This document shows positions 8,302 through 13,419 of a stretch of DNA of 23,361 nucleotides, piece by piece (positions within the stretch are counted from its first letter, which is position 1; each line of letters begins with the position of its first letter). The notes beneath the pieces are model-generated. The model saw only the letters and a list, made by a program, of their open reading frames with translations, made no database searches and had not been told where the DNA came from. The position numbers and the translations under genes are program-made. Origin of the DNA: a virus; IMG/VR virus record IMGVR_UViG_3300047362_001154, positions 1-23,361 of that record; one strand, written 5' to 3'.

Positions 8302-11300
8302 TTATCTCTTGTAGATGTTTGTAGTAGTTGTAACAATAACATTATCTCCTGTAGTCAATCCACTCGCTGAAGTGATTGTCAATCGCACATTATTTCCAGC
8401 ATCGATATCAAACACTGATGTAAATTGATCTATGCCGGTTTTGACGTTTCCGAAATCAGTATATGAGATATCGGATCCGTTATTGACAACAGTAAATTCT
8501 ACAATCTCTTTTTCACCTGAAGTAATATTTAAAGCAGCAACAGTAACTTTACATCCAATAGCAATACTTGGGTCATAGAGAACAACCGCTCCAGTATCTA
8601 CAGTTCCAACAGTGAATGATAAATCTTTTGTTAAAATTTTATAATCGGAAAGCTCAAATTCTTTCAACTCCGTATCAAAAATTTTAACTCCATTATAAAT
8701 TCCTGTTCCAAATCCAAGATTAAAGAAAACATCACCTTGATCATCTAGTCTTAAAATAGCATCATTATTTACTCCAGAAGATACTCCTAAATCTAGGAAC
8801 TCTCTTGAAGTAAAGATAAATGATCTATCTGAATTGGCACCATCTCCATTTAGAATAGTAAGAGAATTGTTCTCAAGAACAAAATTTTGTGTTTCTATAT
8901 TTAATGTTTCTCCGGAAACATTAATTGTATCTATAGATGAAAAGGTGAATCCATTTGTATTTAATGTTACCGTTTCTGTTCCGGCATTAAAGAAATACAA
9001 AGTGTCTTCATCCGAACCCGGAGAAATTTCTGGTTTAATAAACGTATCTTGATCAATATCTTTTACACCACCCAATGATCCCCAGTTAGATCCATCATAT
9101 CCCTCAAAAATAGTATCAGATGTATTAAATCTTATTGATCCTACTTCTGCAGATCCTTTTTGATTTTGATCTCCAACAGGAATTACTAAAGAAGAAGTTG
9201 CATCAACTTTTAATTTTTGACCACTATTTGGTCTGAGAACTAAATCACCTATATCTGTAGAAATAGAATTTCCGGTAAGTCTCAAGTCTTGACTGATTAC
9301 TAGAGGAGTATCGTCAGTTGCACCTATTCTTACCTCAGATATTTCTTCAAATGATAATTCTGATACTGCAGTTACATTCCATTCTAGTTGAGCAGTTCCA
9401 TTTGTTTCAGTTCCTGTTGTGTGTGTTGGTGCAGTAGTTCCTGTCGTTCCACTTCCACCTACTGGAACTATGTAAATATTTTTTTTATATTTGATGAATG
9501 TACCATCAGAAATTGTGGTATTTGCTGCCCATTCTGTGGAGTTTGGAGCAGAAATATTAATAGACTTAATCTTTTTAACAGTATTAAAGTCTAGAGAATT
9601 TGGTGTTAATTTTATAGTGTTATTATTATCATTATAAAAATATAATGTATTGTCATTAGCACCAACAGTTTCTTCTGCTACAATATAGGTATTTCCATCC
9701 AGGTCACGAACTCCTCCAAGAGAAGACCACGAAGAAGATGCAGCACTATAACCTTCATATTGATTAGATTCTGTATTAAATCTAATCGCTCCATTTTGTG
9801 CAATAGGTGAGATTGGTCTTTGTGAACTATCTCCAGATGGAATAACAAATGCAGTTGTTCCTGTTACTTTCGCTACTCTGTTTGAGGCAGGCGAGAACAA
9901 TAAATCTTCTGATCCTAATGTAGATATAGTAGCGTTTGAAATTGTAAGTAATCCGTTAGAATTGATTTGATTATTACTTCTTAAAACACCACTTGTTGTA
10001 ATATTTCCTGAACTATTTGTAATTGATACATTAGTTCCAATGTTTACATCTGGGGAAGTAAAACTAACACTAGAACCTATTACGTTTAAATTTGTAGTAT
10101 TTAAAGTTGATAACGTTAACGAATTTGCAGTTATAGATGTTATATTACCTGTAGTTGAAGTTAACGTAGTTACATTGCCAGTAACTGCAGTAATTGCATT
10201 TGCGGTAATTCTACCTTCTGAAATTTCATTCTTGATGATATCAATAGAACTAATTGTAGATACCTGAATTTCTAATCCAGAACCAAAAACTTTTGGATTG
10301 TTTGTATCTACCGTTAAAGTTGCTTCATTTCCAGGACTACCGCCAATGTTTGCATAATTTACATTTGAACTATTGTTTGCATAGTAATATAAAGTTGGTG
10401 TATCTGATAAAACTTTGATTGTTAAACCAGAAGTTCCTAGAGATACTCCATTTTCATATGCATATCCACGGAAGTTCAATACACATGATCCATTTGCAGT
10501 AGGTGATTTGTCTACTGTAATATTACTTCCATCTACAATAGAAACAACTTTAGTATCACTTTGCAAAGATCCATCACCACTAACTAAAGAAAGTCGCATT
10601 CCTTGGATAATACCAGTGCTGCTACCAACGTTTATTGAAGTACTTCCAGCAACCAAAGTTGCATTAACATTTTCAATAAAACTATTTCCCCAAATACCGC
10701 CCGGAAACTGTGAAAGTTGAAAATCAAGTGGAGAAATACTGGCATCTCCTATGTTAAAAGTATAAGAATTTCCTTCCAATAGAGTTAAATTTGGATTATA
10801 TACTGGACCGGAACCAGTATCTATAGTAAACCCAAACCTTTCTGCAGATCCAGTTGCAGTAAGAGCAGTATAAATTGGAGTAGTTGTTCCTACAACAATA
10901 AACTGTGAAGTATTACCAAATCCACCTACATCAACTAATAATGAAGTTGTGAATCCACCAGACTCTGTTACTTCTCTTACTTGAGCAGATGTAGTTTCTG
11001 AAACGTCGTCAATAGTTACAACTGCATCATCTGCTGGAGAAGATCCACCAACTAAGTTTCCTGCAATAGTTAATGTATCCCCGGCAGCATAAAAGAATCC
11101 AGATCCAACAATTACAACACTAGAAATAACACCTTCGGCATTTCTAGATATATTTAAAGTTTCGTTAATTCCATTTGCACTATTTGTAGTAGTAGCAACA
11201 CCACTGTATGTCGCAGTTTTGTCTTCTGTGAATGTGAGGTTTGCTAAACCAGAAGCAATTGGATTTGCTGATAATGTTATTTCTCCAGTTCCTAGATTCA

Positions 11301-13419
11301 CACCAGTAACTGTAATATTGGGACCCACAGAACCAGTTCCTGTAGATGTTACTCTATAACCAATTGCAATTCCTGCAGCATTAGATACTGTTGTTAGATT
11401 TGTAGTTGTAGTTAATGTTGCTGATAGTGGTCCTACTGTATTTGGAGTTAATGTAGTAGAAGATGTTAAGTTTGATGAAACAGGAGTTCCATCTCTAAGT
11501 TTAATAGATTGACTTGTGGTAAATGTCCCACTTGGAATTGTAGATGCTCCAAAAGTTAATTCTTGTAAATCAATTACTCTAGCAGTATAAGAAATTGGTT
11601 GTACTAAGTCAGTATTTGTTACACTGATCAAATCATCTTCAAAATAACCAATACCACCATTAGATACAGAAACTGATGATACAACACCAATATTATTAAT
11701 AGTATATGTAAATGCTGATGTTGGAGTTCCGTAAGGTGGTGTGAAAGTTAATGTGCCACTACCAGAAGTTGCTGGGTTATTATTAATTGTTATGCTATTA
11801 GCATCATAATCAATAGCCTCTACTAGAGTTTCTCCTGAACCTAAAGATCCAGTTCCAGCAGTTAAAGTTACAACAGATCCAGGAACAATTAGGGAAACAT
11901 CACTTACAGTAAATGTAAGTTCTGGATCAGTATTTCCACCATCACTACCAACTAAAGTGGTAGTTACACCAGTCTGTGTTGCTGGCAAAGAAATGATATC
12001 ATTTGCAAGATAATCATTAGCAGCATTATTGAATGTAAAATTTCTTAAAATTCCTGGTTGTGAAGTAATAGTAAAAGATGCATTACTTCCAGTTGATCCA
12101 ACATCTGCAGCTGCTACAGAAAGAACATCATTTTGGATATAATTTTGACCGCTATTTACAATAGTTAATGCAGTAATTGTTCCATTTGGATTAATACTAT
12201 TAATAGTATACCCTCCACTAGTTCCTGCTCCAATTGTAACTGGTGGGATTTCTAATACATCCGTTGCTTGATAATTGGAACCAATAGATGTAAATGTAAT
12301 TGCTGAAATATTTCCAGTGTTATTAACAGTTACGTCAGCAGATGCACCCGTTCCAAATTGTTGGGGAGTTCCTGTGGTAAAATTAATATCTGCACCAGCA
12401 GTATTGGCAATTCCGATATAAGAAGCAGTAGTCAAAGAGTAACCACTTTCAACTATTACATCTACAAATGCACCTGCTTGTCCAACTGTTCCAACTGAAA
12501 TTGTAGTTATACCACTAGGGGGTGTTCCAACACCTCCAGCACCCCTAATAATTAGAGAATCATCAACGCTGGGGTCTGATAGATCAAATCTATAAGTACT
12601 TGCTGCTTCAAAATTTAAAACGGGTTGTTGTGATCCATCTATAAAGTAATCACCAAGTTGTTTGGTTACTACAAAAGTTTGTTTTGCTTGGTTTCTTAAA
12701 TTTACATTACTATAAACTCCTTCAGTATATCCACTACCTGCAGCAATAGAACCAGAATACGATATACCACCAGAAACTGTGATATCTGCAGTAGCATTTG
12801 TTCCGGTTCCTCCCGTTAATGATACTCCAGTATAACTTCCGTCAGTATACCCAGAACCAGCGTTAGTAATATCTACTACAATTGGATCAACTGTAAATGA
12901 TACAAAACTTCTAGTAGACGTTGACCCACCGGTTGTTGGTATGTTACTAAAATTTCCTGGTGTGTAGTTTGTTGATGAACTTGATGTTCCTACAAAGTCA
13001 TCTACAGTTAGACTTAAAATTCCACTTTGTCCAGTTCCACCAATAGCAGAAATTTGATTGTATGTTCCTGGATCATAATTTTGACCTCCGGAATTTATGA
13101 CGAGTCCTTCAGTGAATAATTCGGTTTTTCTAAAGACAAAATCTCTATAAGAAAGAAATCCACTATCTTCTAGTTCATAAAGCAATTTGTCATTTGAAAC
13201 ATATCCAATAATACCTTGAGATTTTCTGTAAAATCCGAGTGTATTTTCGGAATCAAAAGATAACGATGGAGAAGAAATTGTTCCGTTGCCGAGTTTTAAG
13301 TTACCTGTAGATAAATCACTACCACCAGATGTTACGTTGAAAACTTGTGTGCTGATATTATTAATTTTTTGCCTTTGAATCTCAAAGGTATCGGTTCTTG
13401 CTACATTAATTGCTGGCAT
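8302..13419 (-). CDS. Large modular virion structural / tail-fibre-like protein (1705 residues)
   Basis: The N-terminus (MPAINVARTDTFEIQRQKIN, then GGSDLSTGNLKLGNGTI and SLSFDSENTLGFYR) is a signature I know from cyanophage structural proteins and may be the virion-anchoring part. Residues 105-620 hold many Gly-Tyr repeats (GSGYTDGSYTGVSLTGGTG; GSNYQATDVLEIP; GQNYIQNDVLSV; GIGYFEDDLISV). A YFIDG...LNF segment lies at 248-296 and a longer relative at 862-1028 ending LYYYANNSS. Three copies of an AGS...GTLTF-type module occur near 516-559, 665-730 and 920-983. A Thr/Asn/Ile-rich stretch at 1065-1145 (TGNVTTLTSTTGNITSITAN) looks like a repetitive beta shaft. Two RFNT...SLGGV domains lie near 1188-1275 and 1409-1490. 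The start overlaps the 68-residue gene by 14 bp, and a late-promoter element lies 54 bp upstream. The protein is probably an oligomeric fibre or spike of the baseplate; the exact position is unknown. Confidence 0.88.
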   Translation of the reverse strand: MPAINVARTDTFEIQRQKINNISTQVFNVTSGGSDLSTGNLKLGNGTISSPSLSFDSENTLGFYRKSQGIIGYVSNDKLLYELEDSGFLSYRDFVFRKTELFTEGLVINSGGQNYDPGTYNQISAIGGTGQSGILSLTVDDFVGTSSSSTNYTPGNFSNIPTTGGSTSTRSFVSFTVDPIVVDITNAGSGYTDGSYTGVSLTGGTGTNATADITVSGGISYSGSIAAGSGYTEGVYSNVNLRNQAKQTFVVTKQLGDYFIDGSQQPVLNFEAASTYRFDLSDPSVDDSLIIRGAGGVGTPPSGITTISVGTVGQAGAFVDVIVESGYSLTTASYIGIANTAGADINFTTGTPQQFGTGASADVTVNNTGNISAITFTSIGSNYQATDVLEIPPVTIGAGTSGGYTINSINPNGTITALTIVNSGQNYIQNDVLSVAAADVGSTGSNASFTITSQPGILRNFTFNNAANDYLANDIISLPATQTGVTTTLVGSDGGNTDPELTFTVSDVSLIVPGSVVTLTAGTGSLGSGETLVEAIDYDANSITINNNPATSGSGTLTFTPPYGTPTSAFTYTINNIGVVSSVSVSNGGIGYFEDDLISVTNTDLVQPISYTARVIDLQELTFGASTIPSGTFTTSQSIKLRDGTPVSSNLTSSTTLTPNTVGPLSATLTTTTNLTTVSNAAGIAIGYRVTSTGTGSVGPNITVTGVNLGTGEITLSANPIASGLANLTFTEDKTATYSGVATTTNSANGINETLNISRNAEGVISSVVIVGSGFFYAAGDTLTIAGNLVGGSSPADDAVVTIDDVSETTSAQVREVTESGGFTTSLLVDVGGFGNTSQFIVVGTTTPIYTALTATGSAERFGFTIDTGSGPVYNPNLTLLEGNSYTFNIGDASISPLDFQLSQFPGGIWGNSFIENVNATLVAGSTSINVGSSTGIIQGMRLSLVSGDGSLQSDTKVVSIVDGSNITVDKSPTANGSCVLNFRGYAYENGVSLGTSGLTIKVLSDTPTLYYYANNSSNVNYANIGGSPGNEATLTVDTNNPKVFGSGLEIQVSTISSIDIIKNEISEGRITANAITAVTGNVTTLTSTTGNITSITANSLTLSTLNTTNLNVIGSSVSFTSPDVNIGTNVSITNSSGNITTSGVLRSNNQINSNGLLTISNATISTLGSEDLLFSPASNRVAKVTGTTAFVIPSGDSSQRPISPIAQNGAIRFNTESNQYEGYSAASSSWSSLGGVRDLDGNTYIVAEETVGANDNTLYFYNDNNNTIKLTPNSLDFNTVKKIKSINISAPNSTEWAANTTISDGTFIKYKKNIYIVPVGGSGTTGTTAPTHTTGTETNGTAQLEWNVTAVSELSFEEISEVRIGATDDTPLVISQDLRLTGNSISTDIGDLVLRPNSGQKLKVDATSSLVIPVGDQNQKGSAEVGSIRFNTSDTIFEGYDGSNWGSLGGVKDIDQDTFIKPEISPGSDEDTLYFFNAGTETVTLNTNGFTFSSIDTINVSGETLNIETQNFVLENNSLTILNGDGANSDRSFIFTSREFLDLGVSSGVNNDAILRLDDQGDVFFNLGFGTGIYNGVKIFDTELKEFELSDYKILTKDLSFTVGTVDTGAVVLYDPSIAIGCKVTVAALNITSGEKEIVEFTVVNNGSDISYTDFGNVKTGIDQFTSVFDIDAGNNVRLTITSASGLTTGDNVIVTTTTNIYKR
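8950..9858 (-). repeat. Duplicated RFNT...SLGGV attachment-type domain
   Basis: Copy 1 (residues 1188-1275) contains FVIPSGDSSQRP, AIRFNTESNQYEGY, WSSLGGVRDLDGNTYI and DNTLYFYND. Copy 2 (1409-1490) contains SSLVIPVGDQNQKG, SIRFNTSDTIFEGYDG, WGSLGGVKDIDQDTFI and EDTLYFFNA. The copies are about 220 residues apart and align without large gaps over about 80 residues. (S/A)IRFNT...EGYxGSxWxSLGG is a common domain in phage fibre proteins. Confidence 0.7.
10336..10836 (-). other. Cupredoxin-like phage domain interrupted by another module
   Basis: Residues 862-918 (FGFTIDTGSGPVYNPNLTLL, SYTFNIGD) and 984-1028 (LSDTPTLYYYANNSS ending NIGG) look like the two halves of the phage domain that usually runs YxIDGxxxPxLxLxxGxTYxFD to TLYYYCxxHSGMGG. 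Between them, residues 919-983 form a complete copy of a different module (ATLVAGSTSINV through GSCVLNF). The Cys, His and Met expected in the terminal motif are absent. An N-terminal half-like copy also occurs at residues 248-296 (12532-12678). Assignment is from motif memory only. Confidence 0.45.
11592..13113 (-). repeat. Array of Gly-Tyr beta repeats in the 1705-residue protein
   Basis: Between residues 103 and 610 the pattern I..(A/S)G.GY....(Y/D)..(V/I)...GG.G..A...V recurs at least seven times. Clear centres are GGQNYDPGTY, AGSGYTDGSY, AGSGYTEGVY, IGSNYQATD, SGQNYIQND, AANDYLAND and GGIGYFEDD. The first copies end in (G/V)xY and the later ones in xND or xDD followed by a hydrophobic strand, so there are two subfamilies in order. 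These repeats are common in marine phage fibres and probably form stacked beta hairpins. Confidence 0.6.

Follow-up and report, generated by a model that had tools for sequence, protein, structure and literature searches.

A predicted cupredoxin-like domain of a cyanophage virion protein that has lost its putative metal site and hosts a nested barrel module

The window analysed here, a virus record of 23,361 bases, encodes a 1705-residue virion structural protein, P0001, in which a predicted cupredoxin-like domain (D2) is interrupted by a small beta-barrel module and has lost its expected metal ligands. We put at roughly three in four the probability that D2 is a dead cupredoxin-like domain kept as a scaffold carrying the module, with loss of the site separate from the insertion. 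Under this reading, the ancestor of D2 would have been a putative metal-binding domain with ligands in the order His...Cys-x2-His-x2-Met, and would already have carried the module after the strand following the first His. The whole four-residue site would then have been lost in the window lineage, as one of many losses in the family that look independent of each other, and the fold probably survives there only as a building block: its beta-sandwich would now be a purely structural segment of the virion protein, hosting the module as a second small domain.

The large open reading frames of the window, which are on the minus strand, correspond to the structural gene cluster of T4-like cyanomyoviruses, while the overlapping plus-strand frames in the region are mechanical. 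Their products are a gp8-like baseplate wedge, a DUF4815 protein (2706 aa), a 68-aa virion protein, P0001, a 166-aa virion protein and a tail fibre, and the window appears Kyanoviridae-like from its cyanophage relatives. P0001 and its parts are placed as follows.

8302..13419, minus strand: P0001, 1705-aa virion structural protein (PHROG 6005), host of D2; orthologues in 13 cyanophage records
12352..12699, minus strand: D1, uninterrupted cupredoxin-like domain, residues 241-356, ligands lost in the window; profile match 3.7e-21
11740..11925, minus strand: module-like stretch, residues about 499-560; profile match, read on L016 with a one-residue offset
11182..11454, minus strand: module-like stretch, residues about 656-746; profile match, read on L016
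10288..10872, minus strand: D2, predicted cupredoxin-like domain with nested module, residues 850-1044; alignment, model (pLDDT 89.8, pTM 0.82), fold comparison
10684..10872, minus strand: N-terminal half of the outer (cupredoxin-like) sandwich, residues 850-912; alignment, model, fold comparison
10726..10728, minus strand: Leu898, position of the first ligand His in intact relatives; alignment
10462..10683, minus strand: nested module, predicted small beta-barrel, residues about 913-986; fold comparison, similar stretches in P0001
10288..10461, minus strand: C-terminal half of the outer sandwich, residues 987-1044; alignment, model, fold comparison
10378..10380, minus strand: Ala1014, position of the ligand Cys; alignment
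10354..10356, minus strand: Tyr1022, position of the second ligand His; alignment
10345..10347, minus strand: Ile1025, position of the axial Met or Glu; alignment

The orthologue of P0001 is flanked by a large structural protein on one side and by a small virion protein and a tail fibre on the other in 12 of 13 cyanophage records, the 68-aa gene being unannotated in four of those 12; S-B43 is the exception, with a different upstream side. Since PHROG 6005 is categorised as 'head and packaging', the probable place of P0001 in the tail/baseplate region of the virion rests on these neighbouring genes. The 68-aa gene and P0001 share 14 bases (window 13406-13419), as they do in S-H9-1 and S-CAM4. 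P0001 itself matched no Pfam family.

An earlier note on this DNA had singled out window 10336-10836 (residues 862-1028 of P0001) as a nested module in a cupredoxin-like domain whose terminal Cys, His and Met were gone. Alignment places Ala1014, Tyr1022 and Ile1025 at those three positions and adds a fourth loss, Leu898 in place of the first His, so that all four expected ligands are replaced and the type-1 copper set of two His, a Cys and an axial Met or Gln at canonical places is absent. From residue 1009 the end of D2 reads TLYYYANNSSNVNYANIGG. An assembly error behind this loss was considered and is unlikely, because a second IMG/VR contig shows a single mismatch to the window across 9,424 bases and because the neighbouring lineages share the loss of Cys, His and Met. 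The ending TLYYYCxxHSGMGG that the note gave as normal is seen, as LYYYCxxHSGMG, in L268 (a contig of a marine Verrucomicrobia MAG) and Pelagibacter phage Baldr; the C..H spacing, and hence CxxHxxM, is absent from all six window proteins, of which P0003 and P0004 are cut by the edges of the window, and homologues alone therefore show the intact form. We regard it as extremely improbable that the D2 of the window still binds a metal through other residues: we found no supporting evidence, and P0001 has two Cys (979, in the nested module, and 1623) and a single His among its 1705 residues.

As the note had expected, structure prediction of D2 (residues 850-1044) gave two nested folds rather than one continuous unrelated one: a cupredoxin-like sandwich and, set within it, a small beta-barrel. 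The corresponding model of an intact relative, L052, reached a pLDDT of 94.7, and its outer half aligned with residues 29-135 of nitrite reductase 2dv6 (Z 9.0, 2.5 Å over 93 residues); rusticyanin 2cal also matched (Z 8.2). The outer part of the window model aligned less closely with 2dv6 (Z 7.0, 3.2 Å over 99 residues), within the range that the tool flags as possibly no more than a common arrangement, and in both models the alignment runs across the insertion. In the L052 model, His 47 precedes a strand at 49-52, the module follows at about 63-132, and Cys 163 closes a strand at 158-163, an arrangement we take to be the ligand layout of cupredoxins. The L052 model supports a cupredoxin fold, a Greek-key beta-sandwich of about eight strands, for the outer part; the D2 of the window may share it.

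An alternative is that these residues form a site for another metal, such as zinc or iron, or a protein contact, and that the outer part is a beta-sandwich of a generic kind. Searched with Foldseek alone, neither model had a match at E <= 0.001; the best match of the L052 model was a phage endosialidase, followed by the cupredoxin AcoP (E 9.4e-3), and the best rows of the window model were immunoglobulin-like domains, with AcoP 13th. Copper binding is itself putative, and an axial Glu replaces Met in 47 of 107 intact domains, nearly all of them with a longer loop; a Cys-His-His-Glu set would suit metals other than copper. Against this stand the matches of the L052 model to nitrite reductase and rusticyanin and the type-1 copper-like spacing His...Cys-x2-His-x2-Met, with Cys at the end of a strand and His and Met in the next loop. 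We therefore consider the alternative unlikely, though not negligible; intact family members would bind copper. Ten D1 domains, moreover, carry an axial Gln, as reported for stellacyanin (PMC4059628).

In its predicted outer fold D2 would resemble cupredoxins such as the first domain of the Hyphomicrobium nitrite reductase 2dv6, rusticyanin and AcoP, and intact relatives of D2 share their ligand order His...Cys-x-x-His-x-x-Met. The ligand loop of amicyanin resembles the short loop of these relatives. Unlike cupredoxins, D2 lies in a phage virion protein, gave no significant sequence match and carries a module after the strand following the first His; its relatives often have an axial Glu and a longer loop, and the window copy lacks all ligands. 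No Pfam or NCBIfam cupredoxin profile scored above its curated cut-off, and neither PDB nor Pfam sequence profiles recognised the domain. Profile searches with 37 intact D2 domains found no cupredoxin family, the matches being stray ones such as SLT (0.00033, two members). With 30 D1 domains, Cu-oxidase (0.025, two members) and rusticyanin (0.016, one member) gave weak hits, alongside stray families whose E-values were as good or better.

The model shows the nested module as a compact barrel flanked on each side by half of the outer sandwich, and the module resembles P0001 residues about 499-560 (profile match 1.7e-7) and 656-746 (2e-10), both read on L016, whose D2 is identical to that of the window with an offset of one residue. 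The model supports the nesting claimed by the note. Cys979 (window 10483-10485), inside the module, is one of just two Cys in P0001. Residues 64-135 of the window model matched 8eci_1 (Z 8.8, 1.7 Å over 67 residues), as did the inner part of the L052 model (also Z 8.8); further matches of the window model were 9n71 (Z 7.7) and, for residues 56-139, P22 9pgg_Ab (Z 7.1). The module is thus predicted to share its fold with small barrels of phage virion proteins, namely 8eci_1 of Bridgette, the Mystique tail tube (9n71) and the P22 coat protein (9pgg), and to have the form of a phage I-domain-like inserted barrel of about 65-75 residues in a virion protein. It differs from them in that its host domain is cupredoxin-like and in that similar stretches recur in P0001. 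Since non-phage domains, for example in ubiquitin E1 enzymes, also resemble the barrel (Z up to 7.0 with the window model), homology to the phage barrels does not follow from likeness alone.

A tblastn search with D2 (E <= 0.1) matched 48 phage records, every one of them named as a cyanophage or as a phage infecting Synechococcus or Prochlorococcus. When 13 orthologues were aligned with the window, the module was present in 14 of 14; five have His and CxxHxxM, three a longer loop ending HxxE, and six have lost the Cys. A narrow DNA pattern for CxxHxxM, which missed variants with other flanks, found one site in six of 13 phage genomes and none in seven. A larger set of 250 IMG/VR locus records, contig repeats included, was fetched through a conserved downstream stretch by four scans, each taking the best 80 of 408-494 candidates, and is thus a similarity-ranked sample. 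Full D2 with the module occurs in 244 of them. Five (L151, L169, L170, L175 and L188, from four contigs) have a different N-terminal half that lacks D2 and, by eye, contains an extra intact uninterrupted CxxHxxM domain and a ligand-less D1-like one; these and the truncated L215 were set aside. With identical domains counted once (L016 merged with the window, L096 with S-RIM44) and the 14 aligned sequences pooled, the set comprised 158 distinct module-bearing orthologous domains; L018 and L020, misaligned by MAFFT, were classed from their loops. Outside this count, D2 of Sf-FP1 and Sf-FR1 is of the intact Met type with the module, and S-RIM32 has the module but a lost site; S-WAM2, likewise not counted, has lost the site and has no module.

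These data support the idea that the lost residues had formed one ligand set. Cys is kept in 107 of 158 domains, and all 107 keep both His (two by reading of the loop) together with an axial Met (60) or Glu (47), so intact Cys-His-Met versions, which the note had wanted looked for, exist among the homologues. In the 51 domains lacking Cys, the second His is found in none, an axial Met in one, an axial Glu in one and the first His in ten. When sequences are weighted (effective number 81), the six ligand pairs occupy ranks 1-6 of 16,471 column pairs by covariation, the weakest scoring 0.443 against 0.414 for the next pair, and the ligand residues therefore behave as one site. As about 116 residues, the module among them, separate the first His from the Cys, this covariation supports, independently of the models, the view that the two halves of D2 form one domain around one site. 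The closest pair of intact and lost domains, S-CAM4 and L051, is 70% identical.

The note implied that the site was lost as a result of the insertion, or that the insertion permitted its loss, and the two features do occur together in the window. However, 107 of 158 module-bearing domains retain the full site, while the orthologous D2 of the S-WAM2 lineage (L275, L280 and L281) has neither module nor ligands, which argues that the insertion was not the cause of the loss. By this comparison module and site are separable both ways, and we consider a causal role of the insertion highly improbable. Loss from an intact ancestor, separate from the insertion, fits better. Related domains with a CxxHxxM-like site, intact and without the module, occur in tail fibres of Pelagibacter phage Baldr and Methylophilales phage Melnitz-2, in gp7 of P-HM1, and in contigs of Prochlorococcus and two marine MAGs (seven of seven genome-contig loci). 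Because such intact uninterrupted relatives exist, loss of the site appears more plausible than gain, and the ancestor of D2 would have had the site. Large proteins on contigs from Prochlorococcus single cells (L269-L272) have the same domain with an intact CxxHxxM, and may be cellular.

Site loss looks recurrent in the gene family. On trees of the region downstream of D2, the site state changes at least 17 times among 151 rows, against 38, 42 and 44 in three shuffles, and Cys presence changes at least eight times in the first 80 sequences, although such trees carry no direction of change, weak branches are numerous in them and mosaicism among phages could look like repeated loss. By a simple pairwise estimate, shell dN/dS runs from 0.142 to 0.270 in four clades that have lost the site, which include the sister clade of the window but not the window itself, compared with 0.180-0.384 in three intact clades. 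These low values indicate that the fold is still selected in those four clades, and such purifying selection fits the structural role that the note had proposed and that the D2 of the window would have.

P0001 contains a second cupredoxin-like domain, D1, whose ligands are lost in the window; His and CxxHx4M are kept in the sister clade (Sf-CH1b and others). D1 was scored as intact where it has a CxxHxxM, CxxHx4M or CxxHxxQ pattern, and after exclusion of six proteins with unknown and two with unclear D1, 150 could be scored. The first His is present in all 86 intact D1 domains (84 by pattern, two by eye). At least one intact site is found in 141 of the 150 proteins and none in nine, the window among them, so the site is not essential. 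Where D1 is intact, D2 is of the Glu type in 39, lost in 41 and of the Met type in six; where D1 is absent or lost, D2 is of the Met type in 47, of the Glu type in eight and lost in nine. In 84 clusters at 70% identity, seven of which fall in more than one cell, Fisher tests gave p = 4e-7 (Met) and 0.002 (site presence), while tree-based independent pairs showed no significant association (median p 0.125 and 0.625; median p 1 in the 80-sequence set). The apparent trade-off of one intact site per protein, striking by count, is thus no more than a lead.

The axial residue varies with the loop as well: axial Glu comes with a long loop in 46 of 47 domains and axial Met with a short one in 55 of 60, the association of Glu with loop length having a median p of 0.25 in independent pairs. 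D1 ends in CSVHPxQGG, with Gln for the axial Met, in L161, L171, L172, L173, L177, L183, L184, L202, L204 and L205, and all ten proteins carry a Glu-type D2. Gln is an axial ligand in stellacyanin, and loop length and nitrosocyanin are treated in the same source (PMC4059628). In the titles and abstract openings of open-licence literature among the matches listed, we found no description of this domain or of a probable metal site in a virion protein of these abundant marine phages; the main text of a cyanomyovirus virion proteomics study (PMC3037559) does not contain the word copper.

The wider family, with its covarying and naturally varied putative copper site in a virion protein, is the more interesting result. 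We suggest, tentatively and as something short of probable, that T4-like cyanophages have true mononuclear copper centres in their virions, in a protein of the tail/baseplate region, tuned by an axial Met, Gln or Glu and by loop length, that selection usually keeps at least one working site per protein, and that the window lineage is among the minority that has dispensed with both. The intact-Met, intact-Gln, intact-Glu and dead forms within one gene provide a natural series for studying the role of the site in infection and for comparing the evolution of cupredoxin loops and axial residues, with the window as a clear dead end. In L036, D1 is half-decayed, with Cys and Met remaining and both His replaced.
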